From the IMG/VR virus record IMGVR_UViG_3300027909_000053, positions 1 to 30,981 of that record: a stretch of 30,981 bases of DNA; one strand, given 5' to 3'. Position 1 is the stretch's first letter. Each line of letters opens with the position of its first letter. The position numbers and the translations under genes were made by a program. The notes under the pieces were generated by a model. That model was not told where the DNA came from. It did no database searches and saw only the letters and a program-made list of their open reading frames with translations. Positions 2,616 to 29,038 of the stretch are shown here, piece after piece. This DNA is from a virus.

Positions 2616-2645
2616 ATTCTAGGTGATCTCTAGGATCCGGCTCAA
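2616..2645 (-). promoter_or_regulatory. candidate sigma70-type promoter reading leftward
   Basis: On the minus strand TTGAGC (2645-2640) and TAGAAT (2621-2616) are separated by 18 bases, one mismatch from consensus in the -10 and two in the -35. This lies in the 98-base gap between the lipoprotein stop and the 63-residue gene, one of the few real gaps in the minus-strand run. It could start a separate transcript for the small genes and the recombination pair. A weak ACCCC/GGGGGT inverted repeat at about 2645-2662 precedes it. Sequence match only. Confidence 0.4.
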
Positions 2646-23418: not shown

Positions 23419-25161
23419 TCAAGAGCCGACCGGACGGCCCGGCCCGAGCCGGGAGGCCTTCCGCTCGATCCGCGCCGCCGCCAGCATCATCAGTTGCTTC
23501 TGGTTCTCGGCGCGGCCCTCCGCGAGGCGCCGCGAGGTTTCTTTCATTTCCTCGCGGTGCGGCGGATCCATGAGTTCGATGAGCCACTCGCCGTCGATCG
23601 CCCCCGCTTTGAAGAGTTCGAGCGCCTTCATCTGCGTCTGCTCCGAGAAGATCGGGCTCGCGGAGTGCGCGGACACTTGGAGGGACAGCCCCGCCGGCAG
23701 CTGCGCGAGGATGAACCGCTCGCCGCGCGTCGATTCGTAGGTCTGATCGTCGGAGTGCTGCAAGATGCGGAACCCGAGCGTCGCCATGGCCGAGAGCACC
23801 GACTCCAGCTGGAGCGCCATATGCCTGATGCGCCCGGCGCCGATCCCAGCAAGGGAGATGAGTTGATCATTGGATCGGACGCCGGGCATCTGCTGGCCCT
23901 GGAGCGTCGGCGGAATGCCCGACTGGTCATCGAACATCTGGTCGATCTGGCCGAGCATCGCGAACGCTTCCTGGCCCACCTCGACTTTGATGGTCTCGAA
24001 TTTGACGTTCGGATCGCCGGTCCCGTAGGAGCCGCCGATCGAAGACATCGCGCGCCCGGCCTCCTCGTAGTCGCTGAGGCCGATGAAGAGCTTCGCGGGA
24101 TCCAGCTGCCGGAGGATCACCTCGTCCATCGCGCGCACGTGCCGCTCCCGCCATTGCTGGAGCGCGAGGAGCGAGGCGAGTTCGGAGCGCCCCCAGAGGT
24201 AGTTCGGCATCGGGCGGGGCGCGAGGATCCCGAAGGGCGCCTGCCCCGGGAAGATTTGGCCGGTCGGCGTCTTCATCCAGGGCAAGATCGGGTTCCGGCG
24301 CCGCACCAGGGGCTCCGACCCGTCCACCAAGCACGTCGTCACGCGCCAGTCCTCAAACGGGCCCGCGAGCGTGTCCGCATAGGCGTGCCGCTCCCAGACA
24401 TCGACCAAGACGACGACCGGCTCGACCACGTTCGCCTCGAGCAGATATGTCCCGTCGTGGGCGTCGCCCGGCATCGCGCCGGTCACGACCGAGTTCGGGA
24501 AGGTGCCCGTGAGCCCCGAGATGACGAGCCGCGTGAACCCGGAGCCGCCGGCCTGGGGGGACGCGCGGCGGGACGCGAGCGTGATCATCTCCTCGGCGCG
24601 CGGGTGGCCCTGGACCCAGCGTTCAAACTGCGGCATCGAGAGCGAGTACCAGTGGCAGTAGACATCCTGATCGGAGAGCGACGGCTGATCCTCGCGGGTG
24701 ACGCCGAAATCCCATGGGTCGATCGCCGTGATGACAAAGCCCTTCTGGGGGTCTTGCTGGATCTTGAGCGGGCTCGAGCCGTAGACGAGCGCCCATTCGA
24801 GCGCCAGCGAGATCGCGAGGTCGGCGCCGCTGTTCGACCAGACCATGCGGAACTCGTCGCGCGCCGTCTGGGCGCAATCGAGCCACTCTTTCCGCGTGGC
24901 CGGCGGCAGATGCACGCCGAAGCGGACGCTGTCGGGGGACCAGATGTAGCTCGAGAGCCGATCGAGGTGGGCCTTCAGCTTGTTGTACCGGGCCCCGTAC
25001 CCGTCCTCGGTCCCGGTCTCGTACCACTGCCGGAGGTTCGAGCCCTGGACGCGCCGCTGGTCCCGGGAGATCCCGGCGCGCGTGATGTAGACCGTCAGGA
25101 GTTCCCGCGCTTCGTCCCGCCGACGGCGGGCCTCGTACTCGGCGCTCCCCTTCCAGGCCAT
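23419..25161 (-). CDS. portal protein, 580 aa
   Basis: The protein has the helical start (SAEYEARRRRDEARELL), a typical early segment (RQWYETGTEDGYGARYNKLK), a stem-like middle (SGIPPTLQGQQMPGVRSNDQ, where GIP..LQG..P is a hallmark of podovirus portals) and a C-terminal barrel/helix region (FSEQTQMKALELFKAGAIDG, EMKETSRRLAEGRAENQKQL). Length and position just after terL fit. It forms the dodecameric ring at one capsid vertex through which DNA passes. A gap of four bases separates it from the preceding zinc-ribbon gene. Confidence 0.88.
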   Translation of the reverse strand: MAWKGSAEYEARRRRDEARELLTVYITRAGISRDQRRVQGSNLRQWYETGTEDGYGARYNKLKAHLDRLSSYIWSPDSVRFGVHLPPATRKEWLDCAQTARDEFRMVWSNSGADLAISLALEWALVYGSSPLKIQQDPQKGFVITAIDPWDFGVTREDQPSLSDQDVYCHWYSLSMPQFERWVQGHPRAEEMITLASRRASPQAGGSGFTRLVISGLTGTFPNSVVTGAMPGDAHDGTYLLEANVVEPVVVLVDVWERHAYADTLAGPFEDWRVTTCLVDGSEPLVRRRNPILPWMKTPTGQIFPGQAPFGILAPRPMPNYLWGRSELASLLALQQWRERHVRAMDEVILRQLDPAKLFIGLSDYEEAGRAMSSIGGSYGTGDPNVKFETIKVEVGQEAFAMLGQIDQMFDDQSGIPPTLQGQQMPGVRSNDQLISLAGIGAGRIRHMALQLESVLSAMATLGFRILQHSDDQTYESTRGERFILAQLPAGLSLQVSAHSASPIFSEQTQMKALELFKAGAIDGEWLIELMDPPHREEMKETSRRLAEGRAENQKQLMMLAAARIERKASRLGPGRPVGS

Positions 25162-25165
25162 GGGG

Positions 25166-25639
25166 CTAGGTGGGAATCGGGACCACGCGACGCTTGATGT
25201 GCGGGAAGATGTGATTGCGCGAGTCGGCGCGGGCGATCGGGCTCACCATCCCGAGGTTCGCCTGGGACTGGGGGAGCCACCGGACGGGGCCGCCCTGGAG
25301 GGCCTCGCGCATCGCGGGGCGGGCCGGCTCCGGCGCGAGCGCGATCGCCCGCTCATGGTCCTCGGCCAGCTGCCGCGCGCTCTGCCGCGCCTGATCCTGG
25401 GCCGCGTGCTGGCCGTTGATCTGGGGCTCCATCATCTTGTCGAGCACTTGCGCGACCCGGTGGCCCGTCGTGGAGACATTCACGGCGTCGAACCGTCGGC
25501 GGAACCCCTTCTTCCACCCACAGACGGGGCACCGCGTGCTCTTCACCGGGAGATCCTCGTAGACGACGATCTGGGTCGCCTCGGGTGCGAACTCGACTGC
25601 CGTGCAGTGGGCGCACTCGAAGTTGGCCCGGGGGCCCAT
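25166..25639 (-). CDS. zinc-ribbon protein, 157 aa, unknown function
   Basis: ATG 25639 shares its A with the TGA of the Acb2-like gene, so the true start lies inside the longer open frame. The N-terminal 50 residues have FECAHC (CxxC) and, about 32 residues later, RCPVCGW (CxxC), a zinc ribbon, followed by KKGFRRRFDAV. A polar helical middle (QINGQHAAQDQARQSARQLA, EDHERAIAL) and a basic C-terminus (FPHIKRRVVPIPT) follow. It lies between a counter-defence protein and portal; it may be a packaging accessory, a DNA-binding factor or another host-interaction protein. No family recognised. Confidence 0.65.
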   Translation of the reverse strand: MGPRANFECAHCTAVEFAPEATQIVVYEDLPVKSTRCPVCGWKKGFRRRFDAVNVSTTGHRVAQVLDKMMEPQINGQHAAQDQARQSARQLAEDHERAIALAPEPARPAMREALQGGPVRWLPQSQANLGMVSPIARADSRNHIFPHIKRRVVPIPT

Positions 25640-25854
25640 CAGACGCCGCCGCACGCGATCGCCGCATTCGCGGTCATCACGGCCTCGCGGATCTTGCGGA
25701 GCGCGGCGGTCTGGTCGGGGCTCTCGGGCGTGTTGTCGCGGATCACGGTCGCGAACTCGAGCGCGGCATCGCGGATCAGCAAGTACTTCGCGGCGTCGTC
25801 GGGCGACGGCGGATGGTACGTGAACCACGTCAGGAGCATCCCGTCGGTGATCAT
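25639..25854 (-). CDS. Acb2/Tad1-like cyclic-nucleotide sponge (predicted anti-CBASS/anti-Thoeris)
   Basis: This 71-residue protein begins 14 bases after the TerL stop and overlaps the next gene by TGATG. It has a YHPP start (13-16), a first helix (KYLLIRDAALEFATVIRDN), a turn NTPES (41-45), and a second helix (DQTAALRKIREAVMTANAAI). This helical hairpin with its 'RdAa..fA..I...tPeS.dqt.AL.K..EAvM.ANaAIA' pattern is that of the Acb2/Tad1 hairpin family, which forms oligomers that bind cyclic nucleotides made by CBASS, and in some cases Thoeris signals, and so block host defence. Family assignment is from memory of the pattern. The start could also be ATG 25839. Confidence 0.75.
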   Translation of the reverse strand: MITDGMLLTWFTYHPPSPDDAAKYLLIRDAALEFATVIRDNTPESPDQTAALRKIREAVMTANAAIACGGV

Positions 25855-25868
25855 CGCCCGGGAGTCTA

Positions 25869-27713
25869 TCACCGTCGGCCCAAAGTGCCGAAAAACTCTT
25901 GGATCGTTCGGCCCTGGACGGTCGTCGCGGGCGCGCCCCGCGTCCGGTAGCGTTTCAGGGCCGGGTACAGCTGCGAGATGTAGCTCTCGACCGCAAGCGC
26001 GCCCGCTTGCGCGCGATGGCCGCGCGGGGTCTCGCCGGTCGGATCGTAGCCGTCCCCGCGTCCCTCGAGCCGCGAGAGTTCGTGCGCGAGCCACTGGGAC
26101 CGCACCGAGACGGCCCCGCGCTGGATCTGGTCGCGGAACCGCTGGAGGACCGTCGCCTGGGTCTCCGCGTTCGACTTCCACTGGTAGGCGCCGCGCATCG
26201 TGAGGGAGTCGGGGCGCCGCCAGATGTAGTGACGGACGGACCCCAATACGTCCAAGAATCCCGGCGTGCGCGTCGTCCCATAGCCGGAGCGGACGAGCCG
26301 CTGCACCTCCGTGAGGACGCCCGCGCCCAGGCCGCTGATCTCGAGGATGAAGGTCCGATGTTGCGCGCCGTAGGCGCCCGCGAGATGCAGACACACCCAC
26401 GTGAACGGCTGGAGCCCGATATTGGCTTCCGTCGAAAACTCGGCGACTTGCTCGAGCTTGTCCTCATCGAGCGCGGCAGCCCAGACCGACACGACCCAGG
26501 AGGGATCGTCGGGCATCGCGGAATGCGCCGGCACCGCCGCGACGACGACCGGGCGCGTGTCGGGCGGCGTCCAGACCCGCAGCATCGGCTCGTTCAGCCC
26601 GGCGGGCTCGGGGCGCGTCGTTTCCATCGTCGTGCCCCACTCGTAGCGATAGCCGGCGGCCGGCTTCGCGATCGCGGCCTCGATCCGTTGCTGGGTGAGG
26701 GTATCGAGGAACGGGCGCTCCTGGCTCGCGGAGAACGCATCTTCCCAGACCGTCGGCATCTCCTGATCGGCGAGCCGGTGGGAGTTGGCCGCTTTCTCCG
26801 CGACGTACCAGCGGCGCCACGCCCATTGCTCCGTGTCGAGCACGACCTTGTCGCGCTTCCGCAGGAGGGTGTCCCACTCGCGCTCTTTCGGCGTGAGGCT
26901 CGGGGAGCCGTAGGCGCTCCACAGCTTCTTCTGCTTCGGCAGGATCCGGTTGTCTTCGCGGAGCCACCAGCTGATGAACACCGCGCGCATCGTTTTCGCT
27001 TTTTGCGCGGACAGCCAGAGATCGTAGAACCAGTTCTTGCCGCGCGCGGTCCCCTCGAGCACGTAGAGCGCGGCCGGATTCACTTCCGACCATGCCGCGC
27101 GCAAGTAGGTGACGGCCTTCCCGCCGTTCGGCCAGAGCGGCACCTCGGTCCCGTGGGTGAACGAGAGCCCGCGTCCGACGCCGAGCCGGGTCCATGTCTG
27201 CCGCCCGCACGTCTGGAGCAGGAGGCGGCTCATGTTGTTCCACGTAATCTGGACTTGGTTGCGCGCTCGCGTTTTGTTCGGATCCAGCGGGCGCTCCTCG
27301 ATCGCCGGTTTATCGGGATCGTCGTCGGCCGCGTGGCGCAGGGCGAGTTCATCGATCATCCCGAGGAAGAGGTCGCGGAAGTACTCCTTGTTCTCCGGGG
27401 AATCGGTGATCGTGACGCCCTGGAGGCCGGGGAACCGCTGCATCCAGAGCAAGGTCAGAATCAGCATGAAGGTCGAGAGCCCAACCTGCCGGGCCTTCAC
27501 GATTAGGAACTGGTTGACGCCGTCGCGCTTCCCTTCCAAGATCGTCCGCAGGGCCGCGCGCTGCGTCCCCCACGGCGTGATCGGCTTGATGCCGAAGTCT
27601 TTCGTCGCGAGGGGGACTTGGAGGGCGTATTTCCACACGTCGGCGTCGGACGGCAAGCGGATCAACGACACGCTCCGTGCTATATTCCCGCCCGACGAAA
27701 AACGCAACCCCAC
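25869..27713 (-). CDS. terL: terminase large subunit (TerL), 614 aa
   Basis: The ATPase half has a Walker A-like KARQVGLST (residues 73-81), the form typical of terminases, then a Walker B region LSFTHGTEVPLW (183-194) and a motif III-like LEGTARG (219-225). The C-terminal half has the nuclease-type segments WVVSVWAAAL and FILEISGLGAGVL. It powers DNA entry into the prohead through portal and cuts concatemers. The longest frame starts at GTG 27713, but GGAG at 27675-27672 would suit TTG 27665 (residue 17), so the N-terminus is uncertain. A clear small terminase was not found. It begins the packaging-to-tail run of minus-strand genes. Confidence 0.88.
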   Translation of the reverse strand: MGLRFSSGGNIARSVSLIRLPSDADVWKYALQVPLATKDFGIKPITPWGTQRAALRTILEGKRDGVNQFLIVKARQVGLSTFMLILTLLWMQRFPGLQGVTITDSPENKEYFRDLFLGMIDELALRHAADDDPDKPAIEERPLDPNKTRARNQVQITWNNMSRLLLQTCGRQTWTRLGVGRGLSFTHGTEVPLWPNGGKAVTYLRAAWSEVNPAALYVLEGTARGKNWFYDLWLSAQKAKTMRAVFISWWLREDNRILPKQKKLWSAYGSPSLTPKEREWDTLLRKRDKVVLDTEQWAWRRWYVAEKAANSHRLADQEMPTVWEDAFSASQERPFLDTLTQQRIEAAIAKPAAGYRYEWGTTMETTRPEPAGLNEPMLRVWTPPDTRPVVVAAVPAHSAMPDDPSWVVSVWAAALDEDKLEQVAEFSTEANIGLQPFTWVCLHLAGAYGAQHRTFILEISGLGAGVLTEVQRLVRSGYGTTRTPGFLDVLGSVRHYIWRRPDSLTMRGAYQWKSNAETQATVLQRFRDQIQRGAVSVRSQWLAHELSRLEGRGDGYDPTGETPRGHRAQAGALAVESYISQLYPALKRYRTRGAPATTVQGRTIQEFFGTLGRR

Positions 27714-27733
27714 CCCGCCAGAGGAGGGCTCCG

Positions 27734-28081
27734 ATGGTGATCGCGAAGGACGAGAAGGACGACAAGGCCGCGCACGATCCGCACACGCGGGAGGCGCACG
27801 GGAAGCAGACCACCAAGGACGTGGAGCCCGATCCTGAACTCGCGAAGATCGAGGCGTATCACGGCAAGGTGATCGGGGATCTCGACGCCAAGAAGGCGAA
27901 CCTCGAGGCCCAGCGCGAGGCGCTCGGCCCGCAGATCGAAGCCGTGGACAAGGAGAAGGCCGCGTTCGAGAAGAAGATCCTCGAGCAGAAGGCCGCGCTC
28001 GCCGAGCAGCGGGCGCGCGAGTGGAAGGCCGAGCACCCCGACAAGCCGCACGCCGAGGAGCCCGCGCCGAAGACTCGGTGA
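27734..28081 (+). CDS. charged coiled-coil protein, 115 aa (plus strand)
   Basis: The start ATG 27734 follows GAGGAGGG (27721-27728) with a five-base spacer, a strong ribosome site, and begins 20 bases from the divergent TerL start. The product is Lys/Glu-rich: DEKDDKAAHDPHTREAHGKQ, then from about residue 38 one continuous heptad-like helix (KANLEAQREALGPQIEAVDK, EKAAFEKKILEQKAALAEQR), ending in a charged tail. Its position by TerL and its coiled coil could suit a packaging accessory or scaffold, but it is on the opposite strand from the late genes. TATATT at 27681-27686 could be part of its promoter. Confidence 0.68.
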   Translation: MVIAKDEKDDKAAHDPHTREAHGKQTTKDVEPDPELAKIEAYHGKVIGDLDAKKANLEAQREALGPQIEAVDKEKAAFEKKILEQKAALAEQRAREWKAEHPDKPHAEEPAPKTR

Positions 28082-28303
28082 GTGGCGCGCGAACCCTCGG
28101 TTTCGGATGATCAGGTCGAGCGCCTGGATCGCCCGATCTTTCCCGGCGCCGATAGCCTGTCGCTGAGTCAGGCGCCTCCGCGCTGTCCTCGGTGCGGGGG
28201 CGTCTGGCAGCTGGATCCCGAAGGCTACGCGTGCCGCGCGTGCGGGAAACGCTGGCGCACCGTCGAGAATCTCACGGCGCTGCGGGCGCACGGGCGGCCC
28301 TAG
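28082..28303 (+). CDS. zinc-ribbon protein, 73 aa (plus strand)
   Basis: It starts at GTG 28082, directly after the TGA of the coiled-coil gene, so the two are probably one transcription unit. Residues 35-58 hold PRCPRCGGVWQLDPEG and YACRACGKRWRTV, that is CxxC...CxxC spaced 16 residues, a classic zinc ribbon. The N-terminus is acidic (SVSDDQVERLDR). Its 3' end overlaps the oppositely oriented HTH gene by 32 bases, so the transcripts would be complementary at their ends. DNA- or protein-binding is likely; specific role unknown. Confidence 0.65.
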   Translation: MAREPSVSDDQVERLDRPIFPGADSLSLSQAPPRCPRCGGVWQLDPEGYACRACGKRWRTVENLTALRAHGRP

Positions 28304-28920: not shown

Positions 28921-28970
28921 ACGGTTCCGACGACATGGACACGGTTCCGACGGCATTCCGACGGCATTCT
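28921..28970. repeat. short direct repeats (ACGGTTCCGACG and GACGGCATTC)
   Basis: ACGGTTCCGACG occurs at 28921-28932 and again at 28941-28952, exactly 20 bases apart. GACGGCATTC occurs at 28949-28958 and 28960-28969, 11 bases apart. The spacings of 20 and 11 place copies on about the same face of the helix, as for protein-binding sites. Confidence 0.65.
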
Positions 28971-29038
28971 AGCTCGACTCTGGCTCAGAGGGCGACTTTG
29001 GGGGCTTTTTGGGGGGTGTGACACCGGGGTGGGACACC

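Follow-up and report, generated by a model that had tools for sequence, protein, structure and literature searches.

A predicted Acb2/Tad1 hairpin sponge gene with a varying position in the head-gene cluster of an uncultivated phage

Two members of the Acb2/Tad1 hairpin family, T4 Vs.4 (the protein of 7uq2) and PaP2 p26/Acb2 (the protein of 8h2j and 8ixz), are cyclic-nucleotide sponges of solved structure. Vs.4 contacts cGAMP through Y8, H11, K23, R79 and F82, and its hexamer interface is formed by L29, A66, A73 and A77 (PMC10097602). Acb2 is weakened by Y8A and by T68M, the latter lowering binding (PMC12657230), as well as by F82C (PMC12657218). Genes of a similar kind in cultured phages have already been annotated as encoding cyclic-nucleotide sequestering proteins (PMC13348362, PMC11953737). 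The sponge family is thus already known, and what we add is one more sponge gene with good support, this one from an uncultivated phage.

The acb2-like gene and its family

The gene is located on the minus strand at 25639..25854 of the window, by which we mean the whole stretch of DNA analysed, a complete virus record of 30981 bases. The ORF begins with an ATG at 25854, ends with a TGA at 25639 and encodes a 71-residue product, MITDGMLLTWFTYHPPSPDDAAKYLLIRDAALEFATVIRDNTPESPDQTAALRKIREAVMTANAAIACGGV, a predicted immune-signal sponge in which the Acb2/Tad1 hairpin domain spans residues 12–68. Upstream, 14 bases (25855–25868) separate the ATG from the end of the terminase large subunit gene (terL) at 25869; downstream, the acb2 stop and the start of a zinc-ribbon gene share one base at 25639 in a TGATG overlap. 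An earlier note had placed the gene between terL and portal, 14 bases behind terL, and coupled to the zinc-ribbon gene; the location is confirmed and the coupling takes the form of translational coupling.

The window protein matched the Pfam model PF24729 (Acb2/Tad1 hairpin) with an E-value of 4e-13 and 49.8 bits against a cut-off of 27, over profile positions 1–58 of 58, and matched phrog_1454 in PHROG (7.9e-14). The same Pfam model picks up the control proteins T4 Vs.4 (6.8e-20) and PaP2 p26 (3.2e-18), and all 64 relatives in our alignment A1 match PF24729 and no other family. Searching the PDB by sequence, with either the window protein or the A1 profile, retrieved no Acb2 or Tad1 chain, and the link to the solved sponges therefore runs through the Pfam model common to T4 and PaP2 Acb2, together with structure, rather than through plain sequence search. 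No match was found in PADLOC or NCBIfam, as expected for a counter-defence gene. Relatives were found in 153 stretches of viral contigs and in 81 annotated phage records, which together with the PF24729 match indicate that the ORF is not a chance one. On these profile matches the window protein is a member of the Acb2/Tad1 hairpin family, and the family call of the earlier note, which an HMM search was to check, was right. A scan of a genome collection returned 11 loci, of which almost all came from MAGs (Planctomycetota, Acidobacteriota and others), and indicated no host for this phage.

The predicted fold agrees with this assignment. An AlphaFold2 model built with alignment A1 as input has a pLDDT of 95 and consists of a short N-terminal helix (residues 4–11) followed by two long helices (residues 18–41 and 46–67), the helix order described for Acb2 (PMC10419184). 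The two long helices form the hairpin that had been anticipated, and no other fold was predicted. The best match among solved structures was Acb2 homolog 43 in complex with 3'cADPR (9ptq), in which residues 11–70 of the window protein fit residues 2–61 of the homolog (60 aligned, 1.6 Å, 25% identity, Z 7.2), followed by T4 Vs.4 (7uq2, Z 6.6) and Tad1 (7uav, 7uaw), whose C-terminal helix pair fits the window hairpin over 46 residues (Z 5.0). Unlike Tad1, the all-helical, 71-residue window protein lacks an N-terminal β-sheet. When Foldseek was run against the predicted viral proteins of BFVD, the top 12 matches were all Acb2/Tad1 hairpin proteins, with TM scores up to 0.92; against the PDB its E-values were not significant (top match 1.5). 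For a helical hairpin a Z of ~7 is modest, and the fold lends support to the family assignment but would not be proof by itself.

Pocket, assembly face and candidate ligand

Pocket residues were compared in alignment A5, which consists mostly of tblastn hits plus T4 and PaP2, with only L004 coming from peptide-pattern retrieval. We relied on A5 because the near-perfect conservation of REAVMTAN in A1 is partly an artefact of fetching relatives with peptide patterns such as EAVMTANA. In A5, Y8 and K23 of T4 Vs.4 correspond to Y13 and R28 of the window protein, so that the stacking tyrosine and a basic contact are kept, as they are in PaP2 Acb2, and nearly all relatives retain both. The interface residues L29, A66, A73 and A77 correspond to F34, A51, A58 and A62, preserving the small-residue face. 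In contrast, three contacts of Vs.4 are not kept, H11 being replaced by P16, R79 by A64 and F82 by A67. PaP2 Acb2, which retains the R79 equivalent, itself has Ala at the F82 site, and the H11/R79/F82 set therefore does not define the whole family.

A further difference lies at the T68 site of T4, which is R53 in the window clade. Arg also occupies this position in Tunturi_1, ScoobyDoobyDoo and Myrna, whereas Thr is found in T4, PaP2, Schomber, Daredevil, Pahemo, S-2L, StellaBean and homolog 43. Among these, the proteins of ScoobyDoobyDoo and Myrna (Myrna-type mycobacteriophages; L106:1468–1911 and L107:1459–1953) carry a C-terminal extension of ~75–85 residues after the hairpin. Gordonia phage Schomber gp23 resembles the window protein in matching PF24729 (2.2e-20) and in sequence (43% identity), but its pocket is of the Thr type (LTKLDEC).

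As read from A5, the window protein retains its assembly face and one half of its pocket, and the other half is altered. The changes at the R79, F82, H11 and T68 sites mean that the ligand could differ or that binding could be weak. We regard the window protein as a predicted sponge whose ligand may not be cGAMP.

An alternative within the same family and fold is that the protein is a short-hairpin anti-Thoeris sponge, its ligand being chiefly a Thoeris signal (2' or 3'cADPR) and not a CBASS cyclic dinucleotide. The nearest solved structure is that of homolog 43 with 3'cADPR, which aligns over 60 residues with equal spans, has the same short loop and shares E57 and A58 of the helix; the loops of T4 and PaP2 Acb2 are ~20 residues longer (Vs.4 has 88 residues in all), and R79 and F82 of Vs.4 are not kept. 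However, a common fold does not reveal the ligand, and the known ligand is that of the homolog, which has Thr where the window protein has Arg53, as do T4 and PaP2, and Phe where it has Met60. Moreover, these sponge families can bind several signal classes (PMC12043709). We consider a chiefly Thoeris-type ligand a reasonable possibility, short of an even chance.

Gene position among close and distant relatives

The terL gene (25869..27713, minus strand, 614 aa) matches phrog_2 (3.9e-8) and annotated terminases (3e-67 and 1e-60; 29–30% identity over 88–95%). The portal gene (23419..25161, minus strand, 580 aa) had no PHROG match, its profile comparison to L014 and L041 was empty, and an AlphaFold2 model from three sequences reached a pLDDT of 34; its identity is settled by tblastn to two annotated portals (1e-63 and 5e-52; 27–30% over 89–90%). 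The zinc-ribbon gene (25166..25639, minus strand, 157 aa), which has a CxxC...CxxC pattern and no match in Pfam, PHROG or NCBIfam, is a conserved core gene between terL and portal.

Close relatives were represented by five viral contigs (L088–L092), in which terL is 84% identical. The order in the window is terL, acb2, zinc-ribbon gene, portal; in L089–L092 it is terL, zinc-ribbon gene, portal, acb2; and L088 also has terL, zinc-ribbon gene and portal in succession but carries acb2 at neither of these sites. The L088 contig, of 5.8 kb, gave no PF24729 match, and acb2 could lie elsewhere in that genome. Identities of L089–L092 to the window are 67% for acb2, 90% for portal and 91–92% for the major capsid protein; the zinc-ribbon gene is 64–71% identical in L088–L092 and is coupled to acb2 only in the window. 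The junctions are clean. In the window, acb2 separates a TAGACT box from the start of the zinc-ribbon gene; in L088 and L090 the box stands 8 or 9 bases ahead of the zinc-ribbon start. At the other site, acb2 of L090 comes straight after the portal stop, and the window and L088 have no acb2 there. Among close relatives acb2 is a small cargo gene, one that is gained, lost and relocated. In a protein tree of ~70 columns, a common clade of the window and L004 copies is acceptable by the AU test (p 0.78), and so few columns cannot tell a move of these copies within the lineage from two gains.

Junction alignment places the TAGACT box at 25863..25868 (minus strand), 8 bases before the acb2 ATG. The window has a single TAGACT-N8-ATG arrangement, against none in 100 shuffles. 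The box is a possible −10 element of a leaderless transcript, which acb2 may have taken over from the zinc-ribbon gene. TAGA(A/C)T boxes also lie 8 or 9 bases before an ATG at 28966–28971 and 2616–2621 (minus strand); no Shine-Dalgarno sequence was seen at acb2, and such boxes could be leaderless promoters of this phage lineage.

The interval between terL and portal also accommodates other genes. At L089:6946–7453, and again at L004:5738–6245, the zinc-ribbon gene and portal are separated by an insert of 508 bases that carries an HNH endonuclease ORF (HNH_3, 9e-16). The insert is missing from three contigs that are otherwise >99.9% identical, and the adjoining end of the zinc-ribbon gene is different as well, as co-conversion would produce. 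Two distant relatives have other genes behind terL, one for a methyltransferase in MW202825 and one for an unknown protein of 132 aa in MW202753, and a zinc-ribbon-like gene still stands ahead of portal in both. With acb2, HNH, methyltransferase or unknown genes variously present, this interval behaves as a cargo slot.

The same comparisons bear on the neighbouring genes, for which a part in host takeover had been suggested. The zinc-ribbon gene keeps its place between terL and portal even in relatives whose acb2 is elsewhere or at neither site, and with its zinc-ribbon-like counterparts before portal in the distant relatives this leaves that suggestion without support. The plus-strand pair, opposite terL at 27677–28303, comprises one gene for a charged protein of coiled-coil-like character and one for a small protein with a zinc ribbon. 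This small zinc-ribbon protein is present at 57% identity in all close relatives, including L088, which has no acb2 at either site, and a takeover role for the pair is likewise unsupported.

Across the wider set of relatives the neighbours of acb2 are mixed and include polymerase, helicase, HNH, integrase, terminase and portal genes. Contact with packaging genes recurs: portal precedes acb2 in L014 and L004, terL precedes it in L041 and follows it in L037, L070 and L074, and the Schomber gene also touches portal. Distances to terL were counted in 27 of 46 contigs, those in which terL was mapped by the four families tried. With a limit of 1 kb from terL there are three of the 27 relatives against an expected 1.2 (p 0.11); with a limit of 3 kb there are eight against 3.6 (p 0.017, without correction and one of four thresholds tried), all eight on the terL strand. 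There may be a weak pull towards the packaging genes, but being next to terL is not the rule, its frequency being not clearly above chance. In L041 (378–4665), acb2 follows terL with an overlap of 8 bases, and next come a small ORF and a gene of portal size (598 aa); this is nearly the window order and apparently arose by an independent insertion. In Schomber (L085:8004–10292), the sponge gene overlaps the portal end and is followed, unlike in the window, by RNA ligase and ADP-ribosyltransferase genes, possibly a small counter-defence cluster in the head region.

These positions raise the question of whether the sponge is purposely timed to accompany the head genes, being expressed late (or carried in the virion) to match defences that are triggered by the capsid. 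This lineage has two arrangements that place the gene in the head cluster, several unrelated phages also have it there, and the same-strand excess within 3 kb of terL points the same way. ThsB1 of Thoeris recognises the major head protein (PMC12043709), and escape from CBASS is affected by mutations in the major capsid protein (PMC10419184), so that a timing advantage is conceivable. However, T4 vs.4 lies outside the head cluster, in a non-structural region, PaP2 acb2 (p26) is encoded on the strand opposite the structural genes, and most relatives are distant from terL; deliberate timing is accordingly somewhat doubtful. Late expression, the other inference that the note drew from the position, is possible; the earlier reading of the position as a sign of co-packaging was not upheld, since acb2 follows portal in L089–L092 and is at neither site in L088. 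An accessory role of the product in the head or in packaging, such as that of a terL or portal partner whose helical hairpin is coincidental, is suggested by the gene's place between terL and portal and by the copies in L014, L041, L037, L070, L074 and Schomber that touch one of these genes, but is very improbable given its absence from both sites in L088 and its place on the far side of portal in L089–L092 despite 84–90% identity of terL and portal, the mixed neighbours of its relatives and the near-chance count within 1 kb of terL.

Proposed role

Taken as a whole, the locus is probably a mobile anti-CBASS/anti-Thoeris sponge gene that occupies a cargo slot within the head-gene cluster. Its family, predicted fold, kept interface with part of the pocket, and varying position are directly supported. 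From these we infer a hexamer, its ligand, an anti-immune action and a time of expression, as follows. A small accessory gene would encode a hairpin sponge that probably assembles into a hexamer through the small-residue helix face of A51, A58 and A62. A cyclic-nucleotide-type immune signal would be bound between protomers, Tyr13 stacking on a base and Arg28 touching a phosphate. With CBASS or Thoeris signals held in this way, the effectors would stay silent and the cell would not be killed before the phage is completed. The gene would occupy the variable slot just behind terL, probably using the former start signal of the zinc-ribbon gene.

A more specific proposal can be made, although we think it rather unlikely in full: that the window protein belongs to a widespread clade of short-hairpin, Arg53-type sponges (consensus RK(V/I)REAVMTANA(A/S)IA) with a pocket unlike that of Vs.4, which would hold a signal other than 3'3'-cGAMP, perhaps one new to the family, and which by cargo exchange would come under head-gene control and appear when capsid-sensing defences fire.

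The split between Arg53 and Thr53 poses a biochemical question, namely whether the two pocket types hold different immune signals. The three states compared within one phage lineage indicate that a counter-defence gene can be exchanged in the head cluster without disturbing the cluster, and the interval between terL and portal is a practical place in which to seek unknown counter-defence genes.
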